A stretch of DNA of 54,270 nt from NCBI GenBank assembly GCA_910573755.1, contig CAJTBO010000016.1:1-54270 (forward strand). The letters run 5' to 3'. The notes under the pieces were generated by a model. That model saw only the letters and a program-made list of their open reading frames with translations. It searched no databases and was not told the DNA's origin. Shown piece after piece: positions 1,017-29,028 of this stretch. The first letter of the stretch is position 1. Each line of letters starts with the position of its first letter. The position numbers and the translations under genes are program-made. The DNA comes from Lachnospiraceae bacterium. GTDB taxonomy: Bacteria > Bacillota > Clostridia > Lachnospirales > Lachnospiraceae.

Positions 1017-2903
1017 TTATGATATTGGGAAAATCCCTTTCTGACGTAGATAAAATTCCAAAGAATCTTTTTCGACCATAGCCGAGATCACCCCTTCTCG
1101 GGTGGTACACAGACCGGCTGCGCTCGCTGCAATCCTTATAGCATTCTCAAGCTCATACCCATATAACAAATACGATACGAACACACTGATAAACGCATCC
1201 CCTGCTCCGGTTGTATCTACAGATTCCATTCTCTCAACCGGAAACGCTTTTTCTATATCTCTGTTTTTTACATAGCATCCTTCCGCCCCCTGTGTAACGA
1301 TCACAGTCCCTACACCGGCATCAAGCAAATAGTCTATTTGTTCTGTCCACTTTTCAAATTGCGGGCATATATCTCTTAACTCATCCTTGTTAGGTACAAG
1401 ATAATCGATAAGCTTTAATAACGAAGGAGAAAGAGGCCCGCAGGCACATGGTTTTACAATTGTCGGTATATGCAGTTTTTTCGCAATTTTACAGGTAGCT
1501 TCTACAGTTTCCAAAGAAATTTCTGTCTGAACAAGGCAAAACTCTGCATGCTCGAAAAGCTCCTGCCTGTCCGTCAGCGCCTTAGGAGTCAGCGTACCTA
1601 CATTTCCTGATATTCTGACAATTTTAGAACTGCCGCTTTTATCCAGAAAAATATATGCTTTCCCTGTTTTTGATCCCAATTGCCGTACCACACCTTTGGG
1701 ATCAATGTTATACTGATTCAACACATTAAATATCATATCCGAGTCTGCATCATTTCCCATATTTCCAATCAGGACAGCCTTATGTCCCATCTTCGCTATT
1801 CCGACAGCCTGATTTAAACCTTTTCCACCGGGATGCTGATGAAGCATGGAATATGTTACAACGCCGCCTTTCTCAATCGGAGAATCCGTAAGCAGATAAT
1901 TGTCAATGCCAATACTTCCAACAACCAGCACCTTTTTCCCCAATGTCTTATAAGGAATTCCTACTGTCGCCATACTGCTGACCCGTATTTGCGGCTGAAA
2001 TATATCCTGCATATCCGCTTTTGTTTCCATTTTAGAAATCAGTTTTGTGCAGATATGTTTTCCAAAGCTGTACAAGGGGATTTCATATGCTGAAATATCC
2101 GGATATGTAGATGGCCCATGTGATTCATCCTGCAAAGATACCATAGAAAAATCATAAGGAAATGCATAGTGCAACGCTGTTAACACCTTATAAAGCTGCA
2201 ATGACATAATATAATCAGAACTAACCACAGCACTCATAAGACGGGAAGAAATTTTACTTAAAAGACTCTGACTGATGTCATAATAAATATTGTTATCATG
2301 ATAAGGAATACCGTGATCAAACAGGCAGCGTCTGTACCCCTGCAACACTTCTTTGGGCACATGTCCTTCTGTGAGCAGGCACCCGATTTCTTTATGCCCA
2401 TTTTCAATTAAAAGCTTTGTCGCCTGATATCCCAATGCCTGATAATCAATATTAACTGCATCAGGATGGTGAGAATCAAAAAGAAGATAAGGTACTTTTG
2501 CGTCATCAAACCCTTTAGCATGTTTCAGATTTTCATCGCTTACAAGTTCCCACAAAACACCATCTACCCTATTTTTCAACAAAGAGGAAATATGCTTGTA
2601 CTCCAAAGCCGCATCATTGTGGCTGACGCACAGCATAAGCGTATAGCCTGATTGCTGCGCCATATAAATAATTCCCTGCAATGTTCGATCAATATTTTGA
2701 AGTTCCCGAAGCATTACACCTATTACCAACGATTTGGAATTTCCGGAAAGCACAGAAGCATACGGTGTGTAATGGTACTCTTTGACAAGACGCAAAACCT
2801 TAATACGGGTTTCTTCACTGATACTGTCATCTTTCCCATTTACTATTTTTGACACGGTAGACACAGAAACATTCGCCATCTCCGCAAGTTCTTTAATTGT
2901 CAT
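1017..2903 (-). CDS. LacI-type regulator fused to PfkB-family sugar kinase
   Basis: One continuous frame encodes two proteins that are normally separate. Residues 1-50 form a LacI helix-turn-helix (MTIKELAEMANVSVSTVSKI), followed by a periplasmic-binding-like effector domain to about residue 325. The rest is a ribokinase-type PfkB kinase with HPGGKGLNQAVG and the catalytic signature DTTGAGDAF near residues 563-571. I chose the ATG at 2903 (628 aa), which has an AAGGGCGG stretch upstream and begins exactly where LacI proteins begin. A longer ATG at 3026 lacks a ribosome binding site and adds 41 non-LacI residues. A kinase that senses or depletes its own inducer is an attractive idea but is inference; the sugar is unknown. 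Confidence 0.88.
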   Translation of the reverse strand: MTIKELAEMANVSVSTVSKIVNGKDDSISEETRIKVLRLVKEYHYTPYASVLSGNSKSLVIGVMLRELQNIDRTLQGIIYMAQQSGYTLMLCVSHNDAALEYKHISSLLKNRVDGVLWELVSDENLKHAKGFDDAKVPYLLFDSHHPDAVNIDYQALGYQATKLLIENGHKEIGCLLTEGHVPKEVLQGYRRCLFDHGIPYHDNNIYYDISQSLLSKISSRLMSAVVSSDYIMSLQLYKVLTALHYAFPYDFSMVSLQDESHGPSTYPDISAYEIPLYSFGKHICTKLISKMETKADMQDIFQPQIRVSSMATVGIPYKTLGKKVLVVGSIGIDNYLLTDSPIEKGGVVTYSMLHQHPGGKGLNQAVGIAKMGHKAVLIGNMGNDADSDMIFNVLNQYNIDPKGVVRQLGSKTGKAYIFLDKSGSSKIVRISGNVGTLTPKALTDRQELFEHAEFCLVQTEISLETVEATCKIAKKLHIPTIVKPCACGPLSPSLLKLIDYLVPNKDELRDICPQFEKWTEQIDYLLDAGVGTVIVTQGAEGCYVKNRDIEKAFPVERMESVDTTGAGDAFISVFVSYLLYGYELENAIRIAASAAGLCTTREGVISAMVEKDSLEFYLRQKGIFPIS

Positions 2904-3349: not shown

Positions 3350-4270
3350 TCAAACTTTGTTTTCTATCGTTTTTTCCTGTGCCGCTCTGCGGTACTGTTT
3401 CGGAGTACAGCCAATCATTTTAAAAAAACTTTTTCCGAAATAGCTGCTGGAACTGAATCCGCATTTCTCTGCAATCTCTGTTATACTGTCCTCCGTTCTC
3501 AGCAATAATGCCGCTGCTGTTCTTATTCTGTAATCATTCAAATAATTTCCCGGGGACATTCCTATTTTATTCTGAAAACACCTGTCACATTCCCGCACAC
3601 TGATATTCGCTGATTCCGCGATCATATTCATGGATATTTTTTCATGAAAATGTTCCTGAATATACTGCATCATCTTTAATATCCTTGCGGCATCAGGCTG
3701 ACTGCCCATCCTCTTCAGCGAAGTAACCGCAGTGACATCCCTATACAGGAAATACCATATTTCCGAAAGTAAAGAGCGTATTTCAAATTCATACCCTTCC
3801 TGCTTTAAATCATAAACATCTATTAACCGGAACATTTTTTCTATCAAACGAACCCTTACCGCATTATCCGGACGAATGATATATACTTGTATTCCGGGGT
3901 TTTCCAGAACAGGCATCACATATTTCCGCTCATAAATACTGTCAAACATACCGGAAATAAGATATTTGTCAAATAAATGTGCCAAAAGCCTGCTTCCTCT
4001 GCCCTTCGCGGTTACTGTATGAAGCGTATTGGAATTGATAAAGACTGCCTCTCCTTTATGTACCGTAAATGCGCCCTCCGGGATTCTGTATTCTATTTCC
4101 CCTTCCTCTATATAATCTATCTCCAACGCCGTATGCCAATGCCAGGCTATCTTTTTCCCGATACAATCATCCATATGGCGGAGCATACATACATAAGGAA
4201 ATTCTTCTGTATATCCCGGCAACACCTCTTCTTTATTACTTTTTAACTCCAAATAAGGCGTAGCAATCAT
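3350..4270 (-). CDS. AraC-family transcriptional regulator
   Basis: A 306-residue protein with a cupin-like sensor half, seen in WHWHTALEIDYIEEGEIEYR and FINSNTLHTV. The C-terminal double helix-turn-helix of AraC/XylS proteins follows (IQEHFHEKISMNMIAESANI, then ITEIAEKCGFSSSSYFGKSF). Length and domain order match sugar-responsive AraC activators. The gene is divergent from the small ORF at 4478 and upstream of LacI-PfkB on the same strand. Its target is unknown; the kinase fusion gene or the adjacent BMC locus are candidates by position only. Confidence 0.9.
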   Translation of the reverse strand: MIATPYLELKSNKEEVLPGYTEEFPYVCMLRHMDDCIGKKIAWHWHTALEIDYIEEGEIEYRIPEGAFTVHKGEAVFINSNTLHTVTAKGRGSRLLAHLFDKYLISGMFDSIYERKYVMPVLENPGIQVYIIRPDNAVRVRLIEKMFRLIDVYDLKQEGYEFEIRSLLSEIWYFLYRDVTAVTSLKRMGSQPDAARILKMMQYIQEHFHEKISMNMIAESANISVRECDRCFQNKIGMSPGNYLNDYRIRTAAALLLRTEDSITEIAEKCGFSSSSYFGKSFFKMIGCTPKQYRRAAQEKTIENKV

Positions 4271-4779: not shown

Positions 4780-5547
4780 CTATCTCCCCGGGTAATAACA
4801 CTGCACTCCCATCTGTTTAAATCTCTCCAGCCATTCATCCCCCGGCTTTTCGTCCGTCACCACGATATCCATCTCCGACAAACCTGCGATCTGCGCAAAT
4901 GCCGTCTTTCCGAACTTCGTCTTGTCTACCGCAATGATCCTGTGCTTTGCCGACTTCATCATAATACGCTTTGGCTGCGCAAACTCTTCGTTACTGTCCG
5001 TCAGCCCCCGCTCCAGATCAAACCCTTTTCCGGAGACAATGGCGATCTCCACATTGTAGGTATCCAACGCCTCTATCGCCTTCGGCCCCACCAGCGCCAG
5101 ATACCCCTCCTTCAGCCTGCCGCCGGAAGAAATAATATCCCAGTCGCTGACATCCGCAAGTTCAATCACGATTTCAATCGAATTTGTAACAAGCGTGATC
5201 CTCTCTTTCTGCTTGATCGCCTTCGCAATAAAAACGCTGGTCGTCGATGCATCTATCGCAATATGGTCGCCGTCCTGAATCATCTCCGCGATCAGTTCCG
5301 CGATTTTCCGTTTCCCTGCCACATTTTTTTTCTTCCGGATATTAAACGGCATATCAATGCTGGTGTTCTCATTGATCACCGCGCCGCCGTAACTCTTCAC
5401 CGCCAGCCCGTCCTTATCCAGCTTATCCAGATCTCTGCGGATCGTCTCCTCGGACACCCCGTAAAGCTGACTTAACTCACTGACCACCACCCGCTTCTCT
5501 TCCTGCAGTTTTTCCAGTATCAAATTACGTCTTTCCAGTGCAAGCAT
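4780..5547 (-). CDS. DeoR/GlpR-family repressor of the BMC locus
   Basis: A 255-residue DeoR-family protein. Its N-terminal winged helix reads RRNLILEKLQEEKRVVVSEL and VSEETIRRDLDKLDKDGLA. A DeoRC sugar-phosphate sensor follows, with GDHIAIDASTTS, LVTNSI and IISSGGRLKEGYLALVGP. The start has AGGAGAGAGG upstream. It is the last gene of the aldolase-headed BMC unit. DeoR proteins usually sense a phosphorylated sugar; fuculose or rhamnulose 1-phosphate, or dihydroxyacetone phosphate, would suit the pathway (inference). The palindrome in the promoter at 14514-14542 is the obvious candidate operator. Confidence 0.9.
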   Translation of the reverse strand: MLALERRNLILEKLQEEKRVVVSELSQLYGVSEETIRRDLDKLDKDGLAVKSYGGAVINENTSIDMPFNIRKKKNVAGKRKIAELIAEMIQDGDHIAIDASTTSVFIAKAIKQKERITLVTNSIEIVIELADVSDWDIISSGGRLKEGYLALVGPKAIEALDTYNVEIAIVSGKGFDLERGLTDSNEEFAQPKRIMMKSAKHRIIAVDKTKFGKTAFAQIAGLSEMDIVVTDEKPGDEWLERFKQMGVQCYYPGR

Positions 5548-5633: not shown

Positions 5634-6191
5634 TTAAAGCACCGACTTACAAACCTGCTCATCCGGCTGCGCAATAACAGAAGAATCCAGATACATTCCC
5701 TTAGGTCCCACTTCCGCGATAGCCCTGTCGATGGCAGCTTCCACCGCCGCCACCTCGCCGGTCAGGAACATATAGGACTTTCCGCACATCCCCTTCGCAA
5801 TACGAAGTTCGATCAGATCCACAATAGCCGTCTTTGCCGCCACATCCGCCGCCTGAATGATTGCCGCCGCATCGAAAGTTTCCAGAATTCCCAGCGCTCT
5901 CACCTTCTCCAAATGTGTTGTGCCATAAATCGCCGGAAAAATAGACTCATGAGGATTTCCCAGCACAAAACTGTCGATCAGATTTTCCCCGCTCTGGGCG
6001 ATGGCATTGTTCACCGCCGCATCCACTGCGCTTAAATCTCCGGCAATGATCGCTATATACTTACCGGGGCAGACTGTTTCCGCCTCGATCAGTTCCACAT
6101 CCGAAGTCTTTACCATATGATCCGCAGCAACCACACCGGAAGAAACCGTTTTAAATTCTATCATTCCAATCGCTTTGCCCATCTTCTCCAT
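5634..6191 (-). CDS. pduT: BMC-T shell protein, PduT-like, Fe-S type
   Basis: This protein carries two tandem BMC domains (about residues 4-90 and 97-180), the pattern of trimeric pseudohexamer shell tiles. The motif ETVCPGKY holds a Cys at 41, or 38 if translation starts at the fourth codon. That is the position of the PduT cysteine that binds a [4Fe-4S] cluster at the trimer axis. It lies directly downstream of the PduS gene, which fits a shell-plus-flavoprotein electron conduit. GGAGG is 3 bases before the first ATG, so the second ATG (6182) is also possible. Confidence 0.92.
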   Translation of the reverse strand: MEKMGKAIGMIEFKTVSSGVVAADHMVKTSDVELIEAETVCPGKYIAIIAGDLSAVDAAVNNAIAQSGENLIDSFVLGNPHESIFPAIYGTTHLEKVRALGILETFDAAAIIQAADVAAKTAIVDLIELRIAKGMCGKSYMFLTGEVAAVEAAIDRAIAEVGPKGMYLDSSVIAQPDEQVCKSVL

Positions 6192-6244
6192 TATCCTCCA
6201 TACTGTCTCGGGTCTTACTCTCCGTCAGCCCCCGTAAGAGCCGG

Positions 6245-7579
6245 TTACTGTACTACCCTCTGAATCGTTACCGCATTTTTATCCGCTGCGACTACCTTCC
6301 CGTCTATCGATGCATGAACCGCAACGCTCAGGCCATTCCCCGGCATTCCGACCACGTCCCCTGTCTTTACCATATCCCCGACATTCACGGCAGGGGATGC
6401 CGGAGCCCCGATATGCTGGCTCATCTTCACCGTCACGTTCGGCATGGATACCGTCTCATCACGCAACGGCGCAGGTACATTATACCTGGAGAGCCCAAGC
6501 CGTGCCTCCAGCCGCATCTCCGGCACTTTCCGATACTCTCTGGACTTTTTCACCGGTGCCGCCTTCACATCCGCCGGCGGTCTGACACCAGCCTTCTTTA
6601 AGCCGTCCTTACACTCCGCGATCAGGTTCCTCGGCGCCAGCCCCTGCGGACAGGCATACATCTCACACACGCCGCAGGAACTGCAGAATGAGGTATTCAA
6701 AAATGCCTCAATATGCTGGAAATCCTGATTTGCAGCCGAGCGCATAAACAGATGGGGCTCAATGGGATGGCCCAGCGCATGCCTCGGGCAAAGGCTGGTA
6801 CAGGTCTCACACTGACAACAGGAAGACGCCGCCCGCTTTAATTCCAGTGAAGCCTTGCTCTTTTTCCGCTGTACGATCTGATGATCCTTCGGCAGTACGA
6901 TCACCGCATTGGTGGTTTTTGTCACCGGCATATCCTTTTCACCGATAAATCCCATCATCGGCCCGCCGATAAAATAGACCGGCTCCTTTGTCGTGACCTC
7001 TCCTGCCAGCGCCACCACATCTTCTATTCTGCATCCAACCGGAACCCTGACGGATACCGGATGTTCCACCTCTCCCACGACAGATACCACTTTATCTGTC
7101 ACCGGCGCGCTGAATTCCACTGCACGATATACATTATATATCGTCTCTACATTAAATACCGCCACTCCGGCTTCTATCGGCAGCCCGCCCGGCCTGATCA
7201 CCCTGCCGGTTGCCTCATAAATCAATACCACTTCATCGCCCATCGGATAAGCGCTGTCCAGAAGCTTTATGGAAAGCTTCGGAAACTCCCCGATATACTG
7301 CCTCAAAGCCTGTATTGTTTCCTTATATTCACCTTTAATACCGATTATACCGCTGCCCGCCCGAACAGTATCCGCAACCATGCTGAATGTTTTTAATATT
7401 TCGTAAGCATGCTCTTTCAAAAGCTGTCTGTGAAGCTTTAGCAAAGGCTCACACTCCGCACAGTTTAAAAGAATCGTCTCCGCACGCTCATCCAGTTTTG
7501 CATAAGTAGGAAACCCGGCTCCGCCGGCTCCCACGATACCGCTCTTTTGCAGCAGGTCCTTCAATTCCTGTAATTCCAT
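6245..7579 (-). CDS. pduS: PduS-like RnfC-type Fe-S flavoprotein
   Basis: A protein of about 444 residues related to RnfC/NqrF-entry proteins. The glycine-rich FMN/NAD region GIVGAGGAGFPTYAKL is at the N terminus. Two [4Fe-4S] motifs follow (CCQCETCTSLCP and CSSCGVCEMYACP), and an SLBB/biotinyl-like C-terminal domain ends the protein. The ATG at 7579 has TTGAGGA about 8 bases upstream and aligns with PduS length; a longer frame to 7633 lacks such support. In Pdu organelles PduS shuttles electrons and reduces cobalamin. This locus has a B12-independent dehydratase, so a more general redox role across the shell with PduT is more likely (inference). Confidence 0.92.
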   Translation of the reverse strand: MELQELKDLLQKSGIVGAGGAGFPTYAKLDERAETILLNCAECEPLLKLHRQLLKEHAYEILKTFSMVADTVRAGSGIIGIKGEYKETIQALRQYIGEFPKLSIKLLDSAYPMGDEVVLIYEATGRVIRPGGLPIEAGVAVFNVETIYNVYRAVEFSAPVTDKVVSVVGEVEHPVSVRVPVGCRIEDVVALAGEVTTKEPVYFIGGPMMGFIGEKDMPVTKTTNAVIVLPKDHQIVQRKKSKASLELKRAASSCCQCETCTSLCPRHALGHPIEPHLFMRSAANQDFQHIEAFLNTSFCSSCGVCEMYACPQGLAPRNLIAECKDGLKKAGVRPPADVKAAPVKKSREYRKVPEMRLEARLGLSRYNVPAPLRDETVSMPNVTVKMSQHIGAPASPAVNVGDMVKTGDVVGMPGNGLSVAVHASIDGKVVAADKNAVTIQRVVQ

Positions 7580-7663
7580 CGTTTTTTCCTCAATATCAAA
7601 CAGATCTATACGCATATCCGCCTGACTTCCCAATCAACTTTGGATATTTACCTCTTTTTCATC

Positions 7664-7930
7664 TTACTCCAGCCCGCCGGCATCGTCAATGATGCCAACG
7701 ATTGCCGCATCCACCGGCGCACTGTCCAGCCCGCAGCCGATCCTCGCCGCACTGCCCTGCGCGACCAGCACATACTCGCCAACTCCTGCGCCTATATTAT
7801 CAATAGCCACAAACTGATCTCCGTGCCCTTTCATGGCCCCCACCGGCTCCACGATCATGAACTTGTTCCCGATCAGATTTTCACTTTTTCTCGTAGAAAC
7901 GATACTTCCTACCACCTTAGCCGCTATCAT
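7664..7930 (-). CDS. eutN: EutN/CcmL-type BMC vertex pentamer
   Basis: An 88-residue single-domain BMC-P protein with MIAAKVVGSIVSTRKSENL, FMIVEPVG, FVAIDNIGAGVGEYVLVAQG and a C-terminal PVDAAIVGIIDD. These are the conserved features of the pentamers that close the twelve vertices of the shell. GGAG lies six bases before the ATG. It is the only vertex protein seen in the locus. Confidence 0.95.
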   Translation of the reverse strand: MIAAKVVGSIVSTRKSENLIGNKFMIVEPVGAMKGHGDQFVAIDNIGAGVGEYVLVAQGSAARIGCGLDSAPVDAAIVGIIDDAGGLE

Positions 7931-8081
7931 ATCCGACTCCTATCCCGCCTTTTCCGGTTCAACCTCCGCCTTTGGGCATCCTTCTCACCGGTAACCGCCG
8001 CCCATGGCAAAAATATCCCTGCACCGCCCCTGTCTGGCACAGGCTATTTCCGCCATGGCGTCCGGTTATCCGGCACTCTTA
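7931..8081 (-). other. Long structured gap between pduL and the vertex gene
   Basis: 151 bases inside the operon with no coding frame of note. It contains a 10-bp perfect palindrome (cgccatggcg) and short nested inverted repeats, so the transcript may be folded here. No T tract follows, so it is not a classic terminator. Confidence 0.4.
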
Positions 8082-8732
8082 TTATCTGATGATCCTCACC
8101 GTATCACCCTGCGCGATCTTACTCGCGTTCGCTTCATCCGTATCAATATGCATTTCCAGCGTAAAAGAATCATGCACACGGATCTTCACATGATTGAAAA
8201 CCGTTCCTCTTTCGTTATCTGCTATAACCGATACAATATCGCCGTCCTTACAGCCTGATGCCGACGCATCCGCCGGGGACATATGTATATGGCGCTGCGC
8301 CACGATACAGCCCTCATTCAGATATAAAACCCCTTTCGGGCCTACCAGTGCGACGGGCGCACTGCCCGCAACATTGCCGGATTCCCTGACAGGCGCCTTA
8401 ATGCCCAGTGTTCTTGCGTCCGTTGCGGAAATCTCCACCTGGCTCTTACTGCGGCAGGGCCCCAGAATCCTGACATTTTCAATGGCACGCAGTTTTAAAC
8501 CGACGATCGTTACCAGTTCATTCGATGCAAACTGTCCGCCCATCAGATCTTTCTTCTTTGTCAGATGATAGCCTTCCCCGAATAATGTCTCTACATGCTC
8601 CTGTGTTAAATGGACATGGCGGTTGGATACCCCTACAGGAACAAGATAACCTTTTTCGCTCTTCTCCGCTTCCTGCTTATTTAAGGCTTCAATCACTAAT
8701 TTTGTAATCAGTTCTATATTATTCGTATCCAA
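8082..8732 (-). CDS. pduL: PduL phosphate propanoyltransferase
   Basis: This enzyme converts propionyl-CoA and phosphate to propionyl phosphate inside the organelle, regenerating CoA. The zinc-binding and duplicated beta-barrel motifs VSNRHVHLT and QRHIHMSP are present. I prefer a TTG start at 8730-8732 because AGAGGTG lies just upstream; an ATG at 8777 would add 15 residues but has no good ribosome binding site. The N terminus (NNIELITKLVIEALNKQ) is an amphipathic helix typical of BMC encapsulation peptides. No propionate kinase gene accompanies it here. Confidence 0.92.
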   Translation of the reverse strand: MDTNNIELITKLVIEALNKQEAEKSEKGYLVPVGVSNRHVHLTQEHVETLFGEGYHLTKKKDLMGGQFASNELVTIVGLKLRAIENVRILGPCRSKSQVEISATDARTLGIKAPVRESGNVAGSAPVALVGPKGVLYLNEGCIVAQRHIHMSPADASASGCKDGDIVSVIADNERGTVFNHVKIRVHDSFTLEMHIDTDEANASKIAQGDTVRIIR

Positions 8733-8736
8733 ATTG

Positions 8737-8773
8737 ACACCTCTATTCCAGTCCCGCACAAACCCTGCCGCGC
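8737..8773 (-). repeat. Leader element copy B (upstream of pduL)
   Basis: About 37 bases that match the element at 11711-11747 at about 30 positions, with the same placement directly over the ribosome binding site. The shared core on the minus strand is GGCAGGG, then TGCGG, then ACTGGAAT, then GAGG. Confidence 0.5.
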
Positions 8774-8865
8774 ACATTGCCTGAAAGACGGCCTACGGCT
8801 GCTCTGCACCTGCAGATCGTCTTGTGCGCTGCATAGCCTGTGCTGTTTTCCATTCCGTTGTTGAT

Positions 8866-8935
8866 ACTCAGCCGCGCCTTTTCCAGCACACGCCTTCGGG
8901 CATTCCGTGCTGATTCATATTGCGCCCGGCTGAGT
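8866..8935 (-). promoter_or_regulatory. Large nested hairpin between BMC-H and pduL
   Basis: The outer arms actcagccg (8866-8874) and cggctgagt (8927-8935) enclose a second stem, cagcac/gtgctg (8884-8889, 8907-8912). That in turn encloses gcc-ttcg-ggc, a classical TTCG tetraloop. The structure lies in the transcript just after the most conserved shell gene. It could protect the upstream mRNA or lower expression of the downstream enzymes relative to shell protein; this is inference. Confidence 0.6.
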
Positions 8936-8952
8936 CATTATGCTGTACCGTC

Positions 8953-9231
8953 CTATTTTACCTTCGGTAAGATCATCTCAACATCGTTATGAGGACGAGG
9001 AATTACATGGGTAGCAATCAGCTCGCCTAATTTTGCCGCGCTGTTTGCGCCTGCTTCTACAGAAGACTTTACAGCCCCTACATCACCGCGTACCATAACA
9101 GTTACAAGTCCGCTGCCGATCTTTTCTGTGCCGATCAGTGTAACGTTAGCTGCTTTACACATAGCATCCGCCGCTTCGATAGATGCTACCAGACCTCTTG
9201 TTTCAACCATTCCTAATGCTTCCTGTGCCAT
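8953..9231 (-). CDS. BMC-H shell protein, PduA/EutM-like (1)
   Basis: A 92-residue single-domain hexameric shell protein beginning [20 protein letters not shown], with the canonical pore loop KIGSG and the edge motif [17 protein letters not shown] precedes the start. It is nearly the same as the paralogue at 9580-9855, with most differences in the C-terminal third, which suggests recent duplication. The KIGSG pore is the type that passes small polar substrates such as 1,2-propanediol. Confidence 0.95.
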
Positions 9232-9260
9232 AATGAATTTCCTCCTTCATTTTGTTTTAT

Positions 9261-9569
9261 TCACATTTTTTCCAGTGCTTCCGCATCCTTGAACCTGCTG
9301 GCGGATTTTCTCACCAGCCTCACGATCTCCGGATGAGGGTTTGCAATAACGCCCTGTACCGCCGGCTTCTTTATGCCGTTTTTTGCGGCTGTCTCAACGG
9401 CCTGTGTCACTGCTGACACATCCCCCTGTACGACCAGCGTCACCAGCCGTCCGCCGAGCTTGCGCTCCCAGGTTGCCAGCTCTACTTCCGCCGTTTTGCA
9501 CATGATGTCCAGTGCGGTCATTGCCGGTACGACACCCTGTATTTCAATAAAGCCGTATGCGTTTCCCAT
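9261..9569 (-). CDS. BMC-H shell protein with atypical pore (2)
   Basis: A 102-residue BMC-H protein (MGNAYGFIEIQGVVPAMTAL). The pore-loop segment reads ERKLGGRL rather than EKIGSGL, so Gly-Gly-Arg would line the central pore and give it a positive charge. The C terminus is extended by about ten residues beyond the usual fold. It sits between the two near-identical PduA-like genes. A pore selective for anionic metabolites or cofactors is possible (inference). Confidence 0.93.
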   Translation of the reverse strand: MGNAYGFIEIQGVVPAMTALDIMCKTAEVELATWERKLGGRLVTLVVQGDVSAVTQAVETAAKNGIKKPAVQGVIANPHPEIVRLVRKSASRFKDAEALEKM

Positions 9570-9579
9570 CAGTTACTCC

Positions 9580-9855
9580 TTAAACAGTCGGTAAAATCTT
9601 TTCCACATCATTGTGAGGACGGGGAATAACATGCTGTGCTACCAGTTCGCCAAGCCTGCTTGCCGCAGATGCGCCGGATTCCACTGCTGCCTTTACGGCC
9701 CCTACGTCACCGCGAACCATAACGGTTACAAGTCCGCTGCCGATCTTCTCTGTACCAACCAAAGATACTTCTGCCGCTTTGGTCATTGCATCTGCTGCCT
9801 CGATTGCAGCGGTAAGTCCTCTTGTTTCGATCATTCCTAAAGCTTCCTGTGCCAT
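9580..9855 (-). CDS. BMC-H shell protein, PduA/EutM-like (3)
   Basis: A 91-residue BMC-H protein beginning [20 protein letters not shown], with pore loop KIGSG and edge motif [12 protein letters not shown] chose the ATG at 9855, which has AGGAG eight bases upstream and matches the start of its paralogue at 8953-9231; a longer frame reaches 9882. The two were probably produced by duplication around the atypical BMC-H gene. Confidence 0.95.
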
Positions 9856-9940
9856 AATGAATTTCTCCTTTTTCGTTTTCACAAATTAATATGTTATTCG
9901 GGCTTCTCCGGAACTTCCTGCGAATCTCCAAAGTATCCCA

Positions 9941-10022
9941 GGAAACTTCGCAGTTTTTTACGAAAATCCCCAGATATTCCGGGAAACTTCGCAATTTTCT
10001 ACAAAAATTCCGAAGTATCTGA
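9941..10022. repeat. Two 41-bp imperfect tandem repeats
   Basis: Copies at 9941-9981 and 9982-10022 share the first twelve bases exactly (ggaaacttcgca), and I count roughly three quarters identity overall. A weaker, partial third copy appears at about 9910-9938. They fill the gap between two BMC-H genes. Confidence 0.6.
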
Positions 10023-10047
10023 AAATTACTCATTCTAAGTAATTTTC
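10021..10047 (-). promoter_or_regulatory. Hairpin at the stop codon of the fourth BMC-H gene
   Basis: A perfect 10-bp stem (gaaaattact / agtaattttc) with a 7-nt loop overlaps the TGA stop at 10046-10048. It is followed in the transcript by the 41-bp repeats rather than a T tract, so it is better read as an mRNA processing or stabilising structure than as a terminator. Confidence 0.55.
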
Positions 10048-10390
10048 ATCGTTTATCAAATGCGTTCAGTTTGAGCATTTTGCAGCAGTCCGGTGTGGGC
10101 CTCGGGATCACGTAGCTCTGCACGATCCCCGCGCCGCTTGCGGCCACCTCTTTTGCCGCCTCCATAGCTGCTTCCACGTCTGCCACTGTTCCGCGGAATT
10201 TGATGGTTACCAGCAGTGGAACCGGAAGTGCATCCGCATTTGCCGGTTTGTTCTTATCGAAGTTTTCCAGCGTTACATCGCCCGCCTTGCAGCCTGCGTC
10301 GGCTGCCAGAAAAGCTGTTGTAAGCCCGAATACCTCCAGAATACCCACGGCTCTTTCGTCTTTCACTTCCTCCAGTTTTTTTTCTTCCAT
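10046..10390 (-). CDS. BMC-H shell protein with pore-loop insertion (4)
   Basis: A 114-residue divergent BMC-H protein. After an N-terminal extension (MEEKKLEEVKDERAVGILEV) the BMC fold is recognisable in LTTAFLAADAGCKAGDVTLE and VADVEAAMEAAKEVA. The KIGSG pore loop is replaced by a longer stretch, NFDKNKPANADALPVP, near residues 43-58. A Cys pair (DCCKML) lies near the C terminus. It is the first shell gene of the transcript. It may form a hexamer with a blocked or specialised pore; membership of the BMC family is clear, the function of the insert is not. Confidence 0.88.
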   Translation of the reverse strand: MEEKKLEEVKDERAVGILEVFGLTTAFLAADAGCKAGDVTLENFDKNKPANADALPVPLLVTIKFRGTVADVEAAMEAAKEVAASGAGIVQSYVIPRPTPDCCKMLKLNAFDKR

Positions 10391-10481
10391 CGCCTATACT
10401 CCTTCGACTTAGTTCGAAGAAAATTGAAACACGCTTTTTGTTTCCATTTTTCTCCTGTCATAAATAAATGAGCGCTTATGC

Positions 10482-11702
10482 TTATTTATTTATGATCGCG
10501 ATCTTCAGTCCTGTCATTGCCAGATTCTTCTCCAGCGCTTCATTGATCTGCTCTAACGGATATCTGTCTGTGATCAGTTCCGACAACGGAAGACCGATCG
10601 CTTTTGCGCTCTTTAAGAAATCAAAGGTGGTCACATAATCTCTCAGGGTGTATACCCAGGAGCCTACCAGTGTGATCTCTTTGGAACAAAGGTCAAAGTG
10701 CGGATTGATCGTCGCGTCTCCGCCGTTGATGAAGAATCCCAGTTCGCAGAGGCCGCCGCCGTTCCTGATAAATTTATAGATATTGGCATGTGCCACCGGT
10801 GAGCCGGTACACTGGAACGCGAAATCCGCGGGATGTCCGCCGAAGGCTTCCTCCACGCCTTTTGTCAGATTTTCAATGCCTTTGTAGTTCATGAAGTTCA
10901 CGCTGCCTGCCGCGCCGAGACGTTTTGCAAACTCAAGCCTCTGTTCGTTGCCGTCCACAGCGATCACGTTCACCATGCCCATGGTCTTTAAGATCGCGAT
11001 ACAGATCAGACCAATGGGGCCGCAGCCCTGTACCACCACCCGGCTGTTAAACCGGAGAATGCCTGTTGTTTTCGCTCTCTCTACCGCATGGATCAGTACC
11101 GCGCAGGGCTCGATCAGGATACGGGAATCCAGATCCAGATCGCTCACATTGAAGAATGTGGAGCCTAACGCGCCTCTGATCAGAATGTACTCCGCAAACC
11201 AGCCGTTAAAGTTGGATGCGTCTTCCGCCAGTAAGCCGTATACGTCAGCGCCGCCGACATTCTGCTTGTTTAAATCATACATTGTAATATCCGGGTTGTC
11301 TTTGAAGATCATGCAGGTTACGATCTTGTCGCCGACTTTTACATCTTTTCCCGCGCTGTCCTTCTTTACGTTTTTACCCATTTTTACGATCTCACCGGTG
11401 CCTTCATGCCCAAGTGCTACAGGGATCAGGCTGAAAGGATCGTTTTTATATTCGTGGGCATCCGTACCGCATACGCCGCAGCCTTCCACTTTTACCAGCA
11501 TATCGTCATCGCCCACCTCGGGGATCGGATATTCCATAATATCAAAGTGTTTCAACTGTGTCAGCACTGCTACTTTTCCCGTTTTGGGGATACTGCCCGC
11601 CGCGGGAGCCGCCGCCGGCGCAGCGCTTCTGACACTGCCGTCAGTCATGCTGGCGAGTACCTGTCTGACGATCTGCTCCACGTCATTTGAATTTACTGCC
11701 AT
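10482..11702 (-). CDS. Zinc-type alcohol dehydrogenase with encapsulation peptide
   Basis: A medium-chain dehydrogenase (406 aa) with GCGVCGTDAHEY and GHEGTGE around the catalytic zinc, EPCAV, and the NAD site VVVQGCGPIGL. The usual four-Cys structural zinc lobe is absent; that region reads MIFKDNPDITMYDLNKQ. Residues 1-19 (SNDVEQIVRQVLASM) form an amphipathic helix followed by an Ala/Pro linker, a clear encapsulation signal. In GRM5-like organelles such an enzyme reduces lactaldehyde to 1,2-propanediol or propionaldehyde to propanol, recycling NADH formed by the aldehyde dehydrogenase. Which reaction dominates cannot be read from sequence. Confidence 0.9.
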   Translation of the reverse strand: MAVNSNDVEQIVRQVLASMTDGSVRSAAPAAAPAAGSIPKTGKVAVLTQLKHFDIMEYPIPEVGDDDMLVKVEGCGVCGTDAHEYKNDPFSLIPVALGHEGTGEIVKMGKNVKKDSAGKDVKVGDKIVTCMIFKDNPDITMYDLNKQNVGGADVYGLLAEDASNFNGWFAEYILIRGALGSTFFNVSDLDLDSRILIEPCAVLIHAVERAKTTGILRFNSRVVVQGCGPIGLICIAILKTMGMVNVIAVDGNEQRLEFAKRLGAAGSVNFMNYKGIENLTKGVEEAFGGHPADFAFQCTGSPVAHANIYKFIRNGGGLCELGFFINGGDATINPHFDLCSKEITLVGSWVYTLRDYVTTFDFLKSAKAIGLPLSELITDRYPLEQINEALEKNLAMTGLKIAIINK

Positions 11703-11710
11703 TTCTATCT

Positions 11711-11747
11711 ATACCTCCATTCCAGTTCCGCATCAGCCCTGCCGGGC
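11711..11747 (-). repeat. Leader element copy A (upstream of alcohol dehydrogenase)
   Basis: About 37 bases over the ribosome binding site of the alcohol dehydrogenase gene, with core GATGCGGAACTGGAAT on the minus strand. Related copies lie before pduL (8737-8773) and asnS (32061-32090). The 5' end forms a small hairpin, agccc/gggct. Confidence 0.5.
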
Positions 11748-11773
11748 TAATGGTATTTATTCCGAAAATCTTT

Positions 11774-13165
11774 TCACCTTATGCAAAGGTTATCCGTCAT
11801 CACACAGCGTCTTTTCTTCGTAAAACTCTTCGCGCTGGTCAGGCCTTCACCCGTCCTGCTGGCGATCGTGAATGTACAGATGCTCTCGCCGCCGAATCCC
11901 AGCGCCGCATAGGAAGGTCCGTTCTTTACAAGAATTGCCGTATCAATCGCTTTCGCATACTTCGTGATCCGGTCCACATTCTTGGAATGGATATGTGCGG
12001 AGTGACGGTTGCCATGCTCAAGCCATACAGCCTTTTCCACGGCATCGTCAAAATCCTTTGCCGGAACGATACCGAGGATCGGCATCATCAGCTCTTCCGT
12101 GATCAGCGGATGCTCCTTCTCGCCGACGAAGGTGATACAGCGGATATTATCCGGCACCTCCACGCCGATCATGGAAAGCAGTACTTTCGCGGAACGTCCC
12201 ACGCACTTTCTGTTCAGCGCCCCCTTCGGTGTGAGCACGGTAGCCGCCAGCTTATCCTGCTCCTCTTTGGAAGCCAGATAACAGCCCTGTTCATTTACCA
12301 TGTAATGCAGCAGTTCATCGATAATGCTCTCCACTGCCACGATCTCCTTTTCCGCGATACAGGGCAGGTTGTTATCGAAGGTACAGCCGTTTACCACATC
12401 CGCCGCCGCCTTTCTGATATCCGCCGTCTCGTCGATCAGTGCGGGCGGGTTGCCTGCCCCTGCGCCGATGCCCCGTCTGCCGGAGGAAAGTACCGCCGTC
12501 ACAACGCCCGGGCCGCCGGTTGCCGCAATCAGCTGGATCGCCGGATGGTGCATCATGATATCACTGGATGCCAGTGTCGGTTTTTCCACCGTACATGCCA
12601 CATTGTCCGGTCCTCCCGCTTCCAAAGAAGCCTCATTTACCAGATTGATGGCATACATTGATGTTTTGATTGCCTGGGGATGGGGGTTGAATACTACCGT
12701 ATTTCCGCCCGCGATCATTCCCATCGCATTACAGAGTACCGTCTCGGAAGGGTTGGTGCAGGGCGTAATGGCGCCGATCACACCAAAGGGTCCCATTTCC
12801 ACAAGGGTAAGCCCGCGGTCTCCCGTATATGCTTCTGTTGTAATATCTTCTGTGCCGGGTACCTTGTCTGCCACCAGATGGTGCTTTAAGATCTTGTGGG
12901 GTACATTTCCCATTCCTGTCTCATCCACGCCCATCCTTGCAAGGATCTCCGCACTTTCATGTGTCTTTTTACGGATATTGGAGATAATCTTTTCTCTCTG
13001 ATCCATGGACAGATTTCTGACGATCTTCTGTGCCTTCTTTGCCGCCTCGATAGCTTCATTCATATCTTTGAAGATACCGTGTTTGCCGGAAGGGTTGTCA
13101 GCGATCTGCATCTTTGCCATAACTTCTGATACAATATCCTGTACCATGCTTTCACTTATAGGCAC
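11774..13165 (-). CDS. pduP: CoA-acylating propionaldehyde dehydrogenase (PduP/EutE-like)
   Basis: A 463-residue aldehyde dehydrogenase that makes propionyl-CoA from propionaldehyde and NAD. The catalytic Cys is C269 in NNLPCIAEKE, and the cofactor loop reads ATGGPG with GAGAGNPP. The N-terminal 20 residues (ISESMVQDIVSEVMAKMQI) form the encapsulation helix, joined by a short linker to the catalytic domain. Its start overlaps the end of the upstream PduO-like gene by ten bases, implying translational coupling. Confidence 0.95.
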   Translation of the reverse strand: MPISESMVQDIVSEVMAKMQIADNPSGKHGIFKDMNEAIEAAKKAQKIVRNLSMDQREKIISNIRKKTHESAEILARMGVDETGMGNVPHKILKHHLVADKVPGTEDITTEAYTGDRGLTLVEMGPFGVIGAITPCTNPSETVLCNAMGMIAGGNTVVFNPHPQAIKTSMYAINLVNEASLEAGGPDNVACTVEKPTLASSDIMMHHPAIQLIAATGGPGVVTAVLSSGRRGIGAGAGNPPALIDETADIRKAAADVVNGCTFDNNLPCIAEKEIVAVESIIDELLHYMVNEQGCYLASKEEQDKLAATVLTPKGALNRKCVGRSAKVLLSMIGVEVPDNIRCITFVGEKEHPLITEELMMPILGIVPAKDFDDAVEKAVWLEHGNRHSAHIHSKNVDRITKYAKAIDTAILVKNGPSYAALGFGGESICTFTIASRTGEGLTSAKSFTKKRRCVMTDNLCIR

Positions 13166-13638
13166 GTTACTACCTCCTTCAAGATGTCCTTTCCATATGC
13201 CGCAAGAGCCGTATCCTGCTCTGCCGAGCCGCCGCTCACTCCTAATGCGCCTATCAGCCTGCCGCCCAGATAGAGCGGTTCCCCGCCGCCGAAGATCACG
13301 ATCTTTCCCTCGTTGGTGAACTGAATGCCGTAGAGGGATCCGCCCGGCTGTGCCAGCTTCCCGAGGGTTTCCGTAGACATTTTAAATGCCGCACAGGTGT
13401 AGGTTTTGTTCAGCGCCACATCGAAACTTCCGATATACGCGCCGTCCATGCACTGCACCGCCACCGGCCTGCCGGCCTTATCGGATACTGCCGCCACCAC
13501 AGGGATTCCCATTTCTCTTGCCTTTTCCTGCACTCTGCCGATCAGGGCATTGGCGGTTCTCAGATTCATATCCTGCAGTGTGCTCCCGCCGCTTAGAACG
13601 GACTCTATTGTCTGTTTAATAAGTTCTTCCTGATTCAT
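13156..13638 (-). CDS. PduO C-terminal/GlcG-like (heme-binding fold) BMC protein
   Basis: A 160-residue DUF336/GlcG domain protein, seen in VVAAVSDKAGRPVAVQCMDG, NKTYTCAAFKMST and GGEPLYLGGRLIGALGVSGG. The first 17 residues (MNQEELIKQTIESVLSG) resemble an encapsulation helix. In Salmonella this domain is fused to the PduO adenosyltransferase; here the domain stands alone and the dehydratase needs no B12. Related proteins bind heme or flavin-like ligands, but the role inside BMCs is not established. Confidence 0.88.
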   Translation of the reverse strand: MNQEELIKQTIESVLSGGSTLQDMNLRTANALIGRVQEKAREMGIPVVAAVSDKAGRPVAVQCMDGAYIGSFDVALNKTYTCAAFKMSTETLGKLAQPGGSLYGIQFTNEGKIVIFGGGEPLYLGGRLIGALGVSGGSAEQDTALAAYGKDILKEVVTCL

Positions 13639-13642
13639 ATGT

Positions 13643-14464
13643 TTACAGCCCTAACTGCTGCATTACTTTCTTTGTGATCTCAGCCACCACTTCAGGGCTT
13701 GCGGATTTTGCCACGGAAGATACGGAACCTGTGCCGTTATCACTGTGAGAATGGCAGCCGCAGTTATGGCAGTTCTTGGTATCCTTGTTCATGCAGAGAT
13801 TTGCAGGATGCTTTCCGGGAAGGCCCATCTGTCTTCTGATCTCGTACAGTTTTTCGATCGTGTTCTTATCAAATTCCTTCGGTCCGCCCAGCATTTTGGA
13901 CTTGTACAGAAGTTCCGCATAAAATTCTACGGATTCCATCTTATGATAAGCAGCAAGAAGGTCGGTGCTCCATGTCAGCGCGCCGTGGCTCTCAAGCAAA
14001 ACCGCATCATAATAAGGAAGATACTTTTCTACATTGTCAGGGATTTCCATTGTAGAAGGTGTGCCATACTCAGCGATGGGCACACAGCCAAGAGCGATAA
14101 CCGCCTCGGGCATGATCGGCTGTGTCAGCGGAATACCCGCGATTGCAAAAGAGGTTGCAAAAGTAGGATGCGCATGCACAACCGCCCCTACGTCCGGTCT
14201 CTTCGCATAGACTCTCATATGCATCTTGATCTCGGAAGAAGGCTTAAAACCTTTGTTTGCCTGAATCACATTACCGTTTTCGTCCACTTTGCAGATATAC
14301 TCGGGTGTCATAAAACCTTTGGAAACACCGGTAGGTGTGCACAGAAATTCATGGTCGTTCAGTTTTACGGAGATGTTGCCGTCGTTTGCCGCAACCATGT
14401 TTCTGTTGTAGATCCTCTTTCCGATGTCACAAATCTGTTTTTTGATTTCAAATTCGTTCTGCAT
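13643..14464 (-). CDS. fucA: L-fuculose-phosphate aldolase (class II) with C-terminal encapsulation peptide
   Basis: A class II aldolase that cleaves fuculose 1-phosphate (or rhamnulose 1-phosphate) into dihydroxyacetone phosphate and lactaldehyde. Zinc ligands H97, H99 and H160 and catalytic E78 fall at a constant +5 offset from E. coli FucA. A His/Cys-rich linker (NCHNCGCHSHSD) precedes a C-terminal helix, SPEVVAEITKKVMQQLGL, typical of encapsulation peptides. The normal aldolase ends about residue 215, so the last 55 residues are the BMC-specific addition. AAGGAGG is at 14475-14481. It heads the second BMC transcription unit and marks the organelle as a fucose/rhamnose type. Confidence 0.95.
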   Translation of the reverse strand: MQNEFEIKKQICDIGKRIYNRNMVAANDGNISVKLNDHEFLCTPTGVSKGFMTPEYICKVDENGNVIQANKGFKPSSEIKMHMRVYAKRPDVGAVVHAHPTFATSFAIAGIPLTQPIMPEAVIALGCVPIAEYGTPSTMEIPDNVEKYLPYYDAVLLESHGALTWSTDLLAAYHKMESVEFYAELLYKSKMLGGPKEFDKNTIEKLYEIRRQMGLPGKHPANLCMNKDTKNCHNCGCHSHSDNGTGSVSSVAKSASPEVVAEITKKVMQQLGL

Positions 14465-14513
14465 AAAAATCTTTCCTCCTTGATTTCAGTCGATTTTGTT
14501 GCTTTATATCCTT

Positions 14514-14542
14514 AGTATAAGGTTGTTGCACAACAAAGTCAA
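14514..14542 (-). promoter_or_regulatory. Consensus promoter with internal palindromic operator
   Basis: On the minus strand TTGACT (plus 14537-14542) and TATACT (plus 14514-14519) are spaced by 17 bases. The spacer contains the palindrome TTGTTGTGCAACAA (plus 14523-14536). A repressor bound there would occlude RNA polymerase. Further TTGTTG-like half sites lie upstream near 14552-14566. DeoR, encoded at the end of this unit, is the natural candidate. Confidence 0.8.
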
Positions 14543-14677
14543 CATGTTTTTGTGTTGTTTTTGTTGGTTTTATTCCCCATATGAATCCAAAACCTGAGAG
14601 CATGTCCAAAAGATCATTCTCCTGTGTGAGACTTGGATTTTCTTAGGCGGTGTATTTGGGCACCGCGGAAAATCTTC

Positions 14678-15130
14678 TCACATTTTCCACGGAAGGACAT
14701 CCCCCTCCTCTGCCAGATACTCCAGAATCTCCGGAATGCCTTCTCCCGTTTTGGAATCCACATAAAAAATCTTTTTACAGCCGGTCAACCGGAGCCATTT
14801 ATCCGCCCGTTCCACTCTCGCCTTCGGATCATTGATCTTTGTGACGATGCCCACTGTATCCCGGTTTGTCATACAGGTGATGCAGGGGGGATACAGGGAG
14901 TAGGGCTCGGTTGCCGCAAGCAGCAGTCCCACCACCTGCGCCTCGTATGTGTAGAGCGCCAGCGCTCTTCCGAGATGCGCTGTCTGGGCATATTCGCCGG
15001 GGGTATCGATGATCACGTCAAAATAATTGACATACTGTGTTTTATGATACTGTATCTTCTCCCCTCTCAGCGCCTGCGTCAAGGTGGTCTTTCCCGCTTC
15101 GCTTCTTCCAACCAATATTATTTTTTTCAT
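14678..15130 (-). CDS. eutP: PduV/EutP-like small GTPase
   Basis: A 150-residue P-loop GTPase with Walker A GRSEAGKTTL, DTPGEY (G3) and TKIND (G4 position). EutP/PduV proteins associate with the outside of microcompartments and may influence their movement or act as small kinases. Its start overlaps the end of the EutS-like shell gene by four bases (ATGA type). It is the last gene of the glycyl radical enzyme unit. Confidence 0.9.
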   Translation of the reverse strand: MKKIILVGRSEAGKTTLTQALRGEKIQYHKTQYVNYFDVIIDTPGEYAQTAHLGRALALYTYEAQVVGLLLAATEPYSLYPPCITCMTNRDTVGIVTKINDPKARVERADKWLRLTGCKKIFYVDSKTGEGIPEILEYLAEEGDVLPWKM

Positions 15131-15504
15131 GTCCGTGTAATCCCGCAGATCGTATAGTGCAGCGTCTCGTCCGCATACTCCAAAATAGCCTGTACCGATG
15201 CCTCCACCTCGGATACCGTGCCTGTGATAATGAGTGAGCCGCTGAAGCGGTCCACAAAGCCCAGTTCAATACCGGATGCCTTCATCGCGATATCCGCAAT
15301 GATAATGGCTGTTTCCGCCGGCGATACCGTCAGCACGCCGATGGCTGATTTCGCGTAATCCACCGCCGGGTCCAATCCCAGTTTTTCATATAAGATCCGG
15401 TCCGGATTGGCGATGATGTGCGCCAGCGTGATCTGCTTGCCCGGCACCAGTTCCTGCACAATGCGCTGCTTTGTTTCCGGGCTTAAATTATCTGTATATC
15501 CCAC
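15127..15504 (-). CDS. EutS/PduU-like circularly permuted BMC-H shell protein
   Basis: A 125-residue BMC protein in which an N-terminal extension (LSPETKQRIVQELVPGKQIT) precedes LAHIIANP and the core AIGVLTVSPAETAIIIADIA. The extension forms the beta-barrel that caps the pore in EutS and PduU. It sits between the activase and GTPase genes, two bases after the activase stop. Confidence 0.92.
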   Translation of the reverse strand: MGYTDNLSPETKQRIVQELVPGKQITLAHIIANPDRILYEKLGLDPAVDYAKSAIGVLTVSPAETAIIIADIAMKASGIELGFVDRFSGSLIITGTVSEVEASVQAILEYADETLHYTICGITRT

Positions 15505-15505
15505 A

Positions 15506-16357
15506 CTAACCTCCGATCTGACAATACAGGGAAGAATTCTGCCGTACCACCTGTTTCAGCATCTCCATGTAAGTATTGTCCGGCGGCAGTATGCCGTCCA
15601 TTTCATATTTCCTGCCGAGTCCGTCGTACTTATCCTGTCCCAGTCTGTGATACGGGAGCAGGTGGATCTTCTTTACCCCCGGCAGTTTATCCGCGAACTG
15701 TGCGATCGCCCTGATCTCTTCCGGCTTATCGTTGAAGGTCGGTATCACCGGCACCCGGATATCCAGTTTTGTCTTTCCGGACTCCGCCACTTTTCTGGCA
15801 TTTTCCAACATCAGCTCATTCCCTCTTCCGGTAAACCGCTTATGTTTTTCGGAATCGATATGCTTGATATCCATCAGGTAATGATCCAGATAGGGCAAAA
15901 GCATCTCGATCTTCTCATAAGGCAGGCCCGCCATGCTTTCCATTGCCGTATTCATGCCCCGCGCCTTCGCCGCCCGGAGCAGGTCTCTGGCAAATTCCGC
16001 CTGACAGAGGCTCTCGCCGCCGGAAAGGGTAAGCCCGCCGCCGGAACGCCGGTAATAGGGTTCGTCCTTTATGACGGTCTCCATCACTTCCTCCACCGTG
16101 ACATCCCGGCCGATGGTCTTTGGCTTTCCCTGCACCGTCATCGTCTGGATCTGATACTCCTGAGATTCCGGATTGCAGCACCATTTGCACCGGAGCACAC
16201 AGCCCTTTAAAAATACAATGGTCCGGATGCCTTTTCCGTCATGGATGGAATACCGCTGAATATCAAAGATCCTTCCTTTTGTATGAAGGTACGCCTTATC
16301 GGATGCAGTATCAGCAGATGGGGCCTTTGCGGCAGTGGTATTTCTGACATTTTCCAT
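15506..16357 (-). CDS. Glycyl radical enzyme activase (radical SAM)
   Basis: A radical-SAM protein that installs the glycyl radical on the dehydratase encoded next door. The cluster motif CVLRCKWC gives C53, C57 and C60. The SAM-binding GGGLTLSGGE and a further YHRLGQDKY motif are present. The segment after the cluster motif has no further cysteines, so the two-cluster ferredoxin insert of many glycyl radical activases is missing. In this it resembles pyruvate formate-lyase activase. About 25 N-terminal residues precede the usual start of the fold. Confidence 0.95.
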   Translation of the reverse strand: MENVRNTTAAKAPSADTASDKAYLHTKGRIFDIQRYSIHDGKGIRTIVFLKGCVLRCKWCCNPESQEYQIQTMTVQGKPKTIGRDVTVEEVMETVIKDEPYYRRSGGGLTLSGGESLCQAEFARDLLRAAKARGMNTAMESMAGLPYEKIEMLLPYLDHYLMDIKHIDSEKHKRFTGRGNELMLENARKVAESGKTKLDIRVPVIPTFNDKPEEIRAIAQFADKLPGVKKIHLLPYHRLGQDKYDGLGRKYEMDGILPPDNTYMEMLKQVVRQNSSLYCQIGG

Positions 16358-16368
16358 AAGCTGTCTCC

Positions 16369-25135: not shown

Positions 25136-25147
25136 TCTTCCGCCCTC

Positions 25148-26629: not shown

Positions 26630-26718
26630 AAATTGCCTCCTTCTCCTTGCCTTTTATCAATATTGTGCCGGTCGAAAATTTCGCCCGGCACAAACTATTC
26701 ATGATCGAACTGCAAAGT

Positions 26719-27828: not shown

Positions 27829-27858
27829 AACTACCTCCATTCATGATTGCTTTATTAC

Positions 27859-27893
27859 ATTATATGTTATCCTTTTTATTAAATCGTTTTAAT
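27859..27893 (-). promoter_or_regulatory. Promoter -10 and overlapping LacI operator of the sugar operon
   Basis: A TATAAT-type -10 (plus 27859-27864) lies just downstream of the near-palindrome ATTAAATCGTTTTAAT (27878-27893, one mismatch), which covers the -35 zone. Binding there should block transcription of the importer operon. Confidence 0.75.
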
Positions 27894-27945
27894 CCCGCAA
27901 AAACCTCCTTTCACTTTATTTACAATTTTATTTTTCCCTGCGGAT

Positions 27946-27963
27946 TATTAAAACGTTTTAATA
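27946..27963. promoter_or_regulatory. Perfect 18-bp LacI operator
   Basis: TATTAAAACGTTTTAATA is an exact palindrome with the central CG typical of LacI-family sites. It is about 60-70 bases upstream of the operator at 27878-27893, allowing looping, and lies at the 3' end of the LacI gene. Confidence 0.85.
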
Positions 27964-27973
27964 CTTAAAAATT

Positions 27974-29005: not shown

Positions 29006-29028
29006 GGAACTGTCCCTGTCATTCACTA

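Follow-up and report, generated by a model that had tools for sequence, protein, structure and literature searches.

The window, that is, the whole stretch of DNA analysed here (54,270 nucleotides), contains near its beginning an uninterrupted open reading frame (ORF) on the minus strand (1017–2903, ATG at 2903) that encodes a LacI–PfkB fusion protein of 628 amino acids. A Pfam domain search, which matched eight families in total, bears out for this ORF the original prediction that a LacI regulator and a complete kinase are joined in one chain. The LacI-type helix–turn–helix (HTH) domain covers residues 2–47 (2763–2900, minus strand; PF00356, 47.1 bits, cut-off 27), the LacI core of periplasmic-binding-protein fold approximately residues 55–305 (1989–2741, minus strand; PF13377, Peripla_BP_3, 44.7 bits, cut-off 26.5) and the PfkB/ribokinase domain residues 323–608 (1080–1937, minus strand; PF00294, 182.3 bits). 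An alternative in-frame ATG at 3026 would give 669 amino acids; this long start is disfavoured, and ATG 2903 preferred, because the starts of homologues align there. The top NCBIfam match of the kinase half is the ribokinase model TIGR02152 (219 bits, below the cut-off of 299.65) and that of the regulator half the RbsR model NF047341 (117.4 bits, below the cut-off of 382), a second RbsR model, NF007743, reaching 70.3 bits (below its cut-off of 531); the scores of both halves thus stay below the equivalog cut-offs. Among solved structures, the kinase half is closest to ribokinases and the LacI half to CcpA. A single-sequence AlphaFold2 model of the fusion protein has a mean pLDDT of 38.7, too low for use.

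The neighbours of the fusion gene are a transposase fragment (2–790), genes for an AraC regulator (3350–4270) and a DeoR regulator (4780–5547), and a microcompartment operon; no transporter or isomerase gene lies beside the fusion in the window, in agreement with what had been remarked of this locus. The microcompartment operon is of the glycyl-radical type (5634–18891) and comprises genes for PduT-like and EutM-like shell proteins, an RnfC-like protein, phosphate propanoyltransferase, an aldehyde dehydrogenase, a fuculose-phosphate-aldolase-like protein, EutP/PduV, a radical-SAM activase and a glycyl radical enzyme. A tie between the fusion and this operon was considered and rejected: no evidence speaks for it, and the operon has DeoR and AraC neighbours of its own. 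DDE transposase genes (2–790, truncated by the contig end, and 20025–21191) flank the fusion together with the microcompartment operon. Further along (23097–29026) are found the genes of an RbsABC-type sugar ABC transporter and a separate, ordinary LacI regulator that has kept the pocket Arg and Asp.

The fusion as a single ORF was found in 47 distinct genomes, all of the same class and with copies 28–45% identical to that of the window; this number includes one member with an altered kinase end (L070) and one known from a search row only and left unaligned (G423). A frameshift or an assembly error joining two genes, against which the original prediction had to be checked, is ruled out by the recurrence of the same layout in independent assemblies, including the single-contig assemblies G046, G085, G271, G323, G417, G438 and G632. 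Of 397 genomes of the same family, 33 have a match of 1e-60 or better; the gene is one ORF in 32 of them and split by a frameshift in the other (G119). At the level of the order, 22 of 392 genomes match at 1e-50, 18 with one ORF (5 of them already counted in the family sample) and 4 with separate neighbouring genes. For the class, 7 of 391 genomes match (3 fused, the window's own included, and 4 separate), and for the phylum 5 of 398 (4 separate, with the fusion only in the window's own); in the genus, 1 of 9 genomes has the fusion. A search for kin in named genomes returned one match, an unrelated LacI. LacI and kinase are separate neighbouring genes in the distant relatives (L110–L117), so that the notion of homologues that are always two proteins is contradicted by near relatives and borne out by distant ones. 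When 44 fused rows and 8 relatives with separate genes are placed in one tree, the 8 group together with a support of 100/100, and the long-branched fused row L069 falls beside them; L069 notwithstanding, this topology fits one fusion event between neighbouring rbsR–rbsK-like genes. Mean pairwise identity within the fused family amounts to 64% in the HTH, 43% in the kinase and 28%, the lowest value, in the LacI core. Two members found late (L177 and L178) are described only and stand outside the alignment counts. Fused genes interrupted by frameshifts occur in two relatives (L071, 6114–8083; L051, 4615–6553); the kinase piece of L071 has GGKC instead of GGKG, and a second copy in L051 has GAAD.

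The textbook example of sugar sensing through a periplasmic-binding-protein fold is provided by the LacI-family repressors, and hallmarks of the LacI/GalR family are the hinge motif PN..AR.L and classical operators with a central CG. In the window protein, V186 (2346–2348, minus strand) is aligned with R197 of LacI and Q258 (2130–2132, minus strand) with D274, residues that we take, by name and role, to be effector-pocket contacts; no paper on these two residues of LacI came up in a literature search. Arg at the first position is seen in 0 of 44 fused rows, which have hydrophobic or small residues instead, and Asp at the second likewise in 0 of 44, against 31 of 33 stand-alone LacI rows in each case, a set that includes one row (L113, 2487–3428) more like a solute-binding protein than LacI. 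As judged from the alignment, the effector domain of the window protein is therefore present as a fold with two signature contacts changed. The claim of a full LacI effector domain stands for the fold and falls for the pocket, and the idea that free sugar occupies this pocket finds no support, Arg and Asp being absent from the whole fused set. The hinge is replaced as well, the residue that follows Pro being Tyr in 41 of 44 fused rows and Asn in 29 of 33 stand-alone ones.

The kinase half has a different record. Its whole domain aligns with E. coli RbsK (1gqt/1rkd), and the equivalents of D16, G42, K43, N46, E143 and D255 are present in the window copy (numbering of E. coli ribokinase taken from the 1gqt alignment). 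The motif GSIGID (1902–1919, minus strand) contains D334, equivalent to D16 and conserved as Asp throughout the 44 fused rows, and the sugar-binding motif PGGKGLN (1812–1832, minus strand) contains K361 and N364, equivalent to K43 and N46 and likewise kept in 44 of 44. Altogether, the counterparts of D16, G42, K43, N46, E143, N187 and E190, presumably ribose or ATP contacts, are identical in all 44 fused rows, and these seven positions are all among the 23 invariant ones of 318 columns (43 fused rows). At the position of N14, where 39 of 43 fused rows have Asn, the window copy has Gly. The GAGD motif is intact in the window copy, as stated from the outset: VDTTGAGD (1197–1220, minus strand) provides the anion-hole G568 and the catalytic D569. 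Apart from being fused to a repressor, the kinases of most fused relatives differ from E. coli RbsK in lacking the anion-hole Gly. This residue (Gly254), which precedes the catalytic Asp, is found in 6 of 43 fused rows and in all 44 stand-alone kinases (Fisher p 1e-18, relatedness ignored), the fused count leaving out L070 with its altered kinase end (43 rows, not 44) and the stand-alone set being a mixture of PfkB proteins, ribokinases and others, from which the split-gene kinase piece of L071 was removed (44 of an original 45). The six members with Gly are the window copy, L040, L044, L047, L098 and L099. The catalytic Asp itself is replaced by Asn (D255N) in 2 of 43 fused rows (L062 and L065); among the late finds, L177 has GADD together with Asp at the E143 position, and L178 has GAAD.

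In PMC5405513, the PfkB family motif is given as G/AXGD, with Asp as the base. The window copy has both the di-Gly and the G/AXGD motifs, and the latter is missing from 37 of 43 fused relatives. According to PMC2651755, the GAGD of ketohexokinase forms an anion hole and binds the γ-phosphate, the N of this Gly making the contact; because the contact runs through the backbone, replacement of Gly by Ala, Ser or Cys need not end catalysis. With the separate-gene relatives as root of the tree, the distribution of the Gly takes 5 changes if regain is allowed and 12 if it is not, and the medians over 200 bootstrap trees are again 5 and 12. Because parsimony needs fewer changes in the former case, it appears more likely that the GAGD of the window copy was regained than that it was kept, many parallel losses being the less likely alternative. 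Retention of GAGD has no clear link with a missing neighbour kinase: another kinase is near in 2 of 6 loci with GAGD and in 21 of 39 others.

What the fused regulators may control is indicated by their upstream regions and neighbours. An EM search of the regions upstream of fused genes yielded a conserved 20-bp palindrome, TTAGGAAAATATTTTCCTAA, and an exact palindrome scan of the upstream regions found no common site. The EM score is 226.5, versus 33.3–41.6 in 8 dinucleotide shuffles. Sites scoring at least 8 occur in 34 of 45 upstream regions (shuffle mean 0.5, maximum 2), the other 11 being without such a site; at a score of at least 12, the upstream regions (14,264 bases in all) contain 28 positions and the remainder of these loci (606,942 bases) 4, with the qualification that the position weight matrix (PWM) was trained on the same upstream regions that were later counted and that the sites come from related rows and hence are not independent. 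Of these 4 non-upstream sites, 3 just precede the first gene, encoding a kinase or a BMP protein, of a facing operon (L060, L061 and L101), and the remaining one is in L109. The central dinucleotide is TA, TG, CA, CT or TT in 34 of 34 sites of at least 8 and CG in none. Among the separate-gene relatives, 1 of 8 has a site of at least 8 (L114, 10.2). Gene context was surveyed within 8 kb of 45 fused loci (44 intact and the split L071), with neighbour profiles derived from the same loci and each named from one representative. A nucleoside hydrolase is found in 21 of 45 loci and another PfkB kinase in 23, one or the other in 33 and both in 11; a BMP/PnrA-type nucleoside-binding protein is found in 16 and a sugar-ABC ATPase in 31. 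None of the neighbour profiles matches in 6 of 45 loci, among them the window and three loci cut by contig ends. For scale, the window's own genome holds 6 nucleoside-hydrolase matches in 4.88 Mb.

For the window copy, no operator was found within 320 nt upstream. A candidate operator (3420–3439; PWM 12.2), suggestive only, is located 517 nt upstream of ATG 2903, within the 3′-terminal part of the AraC ORF; the next best score in the window is 6.7. It is the sole site of at least 12 in the 237,679 own-genome bases scanned, and few sites turned up when 28 kinase/LacI stretches and 6 nucleoside loci from this genome were scanned. Genome-wide searches add little: a simple-pattern search gave 35 matches versus 27 in the reversed control, that is, background, and a sequence-model search gave a best E-value of 0.49, that is, chance level, with 3420–3439 not among its matches. 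When six model matches were rescored by PWM, the one at position 666 of contig C22 came out on top (13.9), followed by those on C2 (12.6), C3 (12.4), C32 (11.4), C12 (9.5) and C8 (8.9); the model's own first match, on C2, is located within an ORF. The C22 site (666–698; L191, G000:C22) consists of overlapping palindromes scoring 13.9 at 666 and 11.9 at 679, placed 66 and 53 nt ahead of an operon and beside a promoter-like stretch. This operon encodes a Peripla_BP_4 sugar-binding protein, RbsA-type and RbsC-type proteins, two PNP_UDP_1 phosphorylases and two PfkB kinases, and also SIS, ADP-ribosylglycohydrolase and ureidoglycolate-lyase ORFs. With moderate confidence, this putative nucleoside-salvage operon is proposed as the likeliest target in trans; the link is weakened because the best matches of its transporter, among the loci compared, adjoin separate LacI–kinase pairs and not fused genes. 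Two further LacI-then-kinase neighbour pairs, as separate ORFs, are present in the same genome (L129, G000:C31; L138, G000:C2).

The observed architecture, the residues lost and kept, the neighbour genes of the relatives and the motif suggest that the fusion is, on balance probably, the regulator of a regulon for nucleoside/ribose salvage, with inducer sensing shifted from the LacI core to the kinase domain. Loss of the LacI pocket, strict conservation of the kinase contacts and frequent loss of the Gly are what would be expected if the kinase were the receptor. Concerning the mechanism, we infer DNA binding, allostery, the sign of control, the nature of the sugar and the regulon in the window's own genome from sequence. 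The protein would act as a repressor, an activator being less likely; its HTH would bind a palindrome near TTAGGAAAATATTTTCCTAA, and the LacI core would remain to hold the dimer together and to pass on the signal. Binding of ribose or a closely related compound, probably together with ATP, would close the kinase domain and thereby alter DNA binding. In most members, the kinase is probably impaired in catalysis and would serve as receptor; in the window's clade, where the Gly is present and probably regained, the copy may turn the inducer over slowly. Against this reading stand the GAGD of the window copy, its lack of a near operator, its altered N14 position and the absence of salvage genes nearby. 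A more specific version is put forward only tentatively, namely a Gal3-type switch in one chain, in which the pocket would have died after fusion to ribokinase, the kinase, for the most part disarmed at its anion hole, would have become the inducer receptor, and the window's clade would have regained the Gly, so that the sensor consumes its signal.

The original suggestion was that the fusion could work as a self-limiting switch, in which a fully active kinase destroys the inducing sugar so that induction ends by itself. The window copy, with GAGD and all tested substrate residues intact, would allow this, and the parsimony-favoured regain of the Gly would suggest selection for catalysis in its clade. 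However, 37 of 43 fused relatives have lost the Gly, the catalytic Asp is Asn in two, the pocket meant to read free sugar is without Arg and Asp in 44 of 44, and 23 of 45 loci have a separate PfkB kinase no farther than 8 kb away, so that a second enzyme is often at hand. Inducer removal by the kinase thus fails as a property of the family, while the window copy, from its motif, may still phosphorylate its own inducer; the switch as such is unlikely, and possible as a special case feasible only for GAGD-bearing members, the window's clade included. It is equally improbable that the window copy is a transferred or drifting one whose regulon has been lost. The adjoining transposase fragment, the presence of the fusion in 1 of 9 genus genomes, a GC content of 0.408 versus 0.477 for the window, a long end branch (0.9) and the changed N14 position would fit such a history, but the ORF is intact, the HTH, sugar contacts and GAGD are kept, and both the 12.2 site upstream and the strong site pair before the nucleoside-salvage operon in trans speak against it.

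Two other readings would leave the kinase its metabolic role. RbsR and RbsK could have been fused simply as neighbours, each half keeping its old job, as the adjacent LacI and kinase genes of the distant relatives would allow, and PMC3146418 places rbsUDK of L. sakei in one operon with rbsR. This we hold to be quite unlikely, because the halves have changed in opposite ways after fusion (pocket lost, anion hole mostly lost, sugar contacts kept). Alternatively, the LacI core could answer a protein partner such as HPr-Ser-P, in the manner of CcpA, the kinase having a separate metabolic function. Among solved structures, CcpA chains do match the LacI half best, and an interaction of B. subtilis RbsR with P-Ser-HPr is reported in PMC3146418; yet conservation in the family is lowest in the core (28%), a pattern that does not point to one conserved protein interface, and this explanation is very doubtful.

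Compared with RbsR encoded beside RbsK, the fusion shares the LacI HTH and core, the ribose/nucleoside theme and, in the distant relatives, the two-gene layout; it differs in being one chain, in the loss of the pocket Arg and Asp, in the replaced hinge and in an operator without central CG. E. coli YeiI-type proteins join an HTH to a PfkB domain without a LacI core; HTH and PfkB are common to both, and the LacI core is found only in the fusion. Yeast Gal3p is a non-catalytic binder of ATP and galactose (PMC3409070). The likeness to it is one of proposed principle: a protein of sugar-kinase fold controls transcription through the binding of sugar and ATP, with no catalysis; unlike the fusion, Gal3p is eukaryotic, has a galactokinase fold and targets a distinct inhibitor protein, Gal80p. 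ROK repressors of the NagC, Mlc and XylR type likewise combine a sugar-kinase fold with an N-terminal HTH, and are described in PMC4856308 and PMC12696579 as carbohydrate-responsive kinase folds that gained the HTH; their fold is unrelated to PfkB, they have no LacI core, and the fusion has no PF00480 match. Fold and lineage thus differ from Gal3p and ROK, the principle that appears by analogy to be shared being sensing by a kinase fold. Plant FLN1 and FLN2 are also PfkB-type proteins attached to a transcription machine, but as subunits of plastid RNA polymerase complexes (again PMC3409070), and not as repressors. No paper describing the regulator type of this fusion was found among the open-licence papers searched. 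If the proposal is true, the family would be a natural record of receptor replacement inside a transcription factor, for which a candidate operator and a putative regulon (nucleoside/ribose salvage) are now proposed from sequence. The occurrence of GAGD, GAAD and GAAN members in one family would make catalysis and sensing separable using natural proteins; the two GAAN members (L062 and L065) are natural candidates for a dead-kinase receptor.
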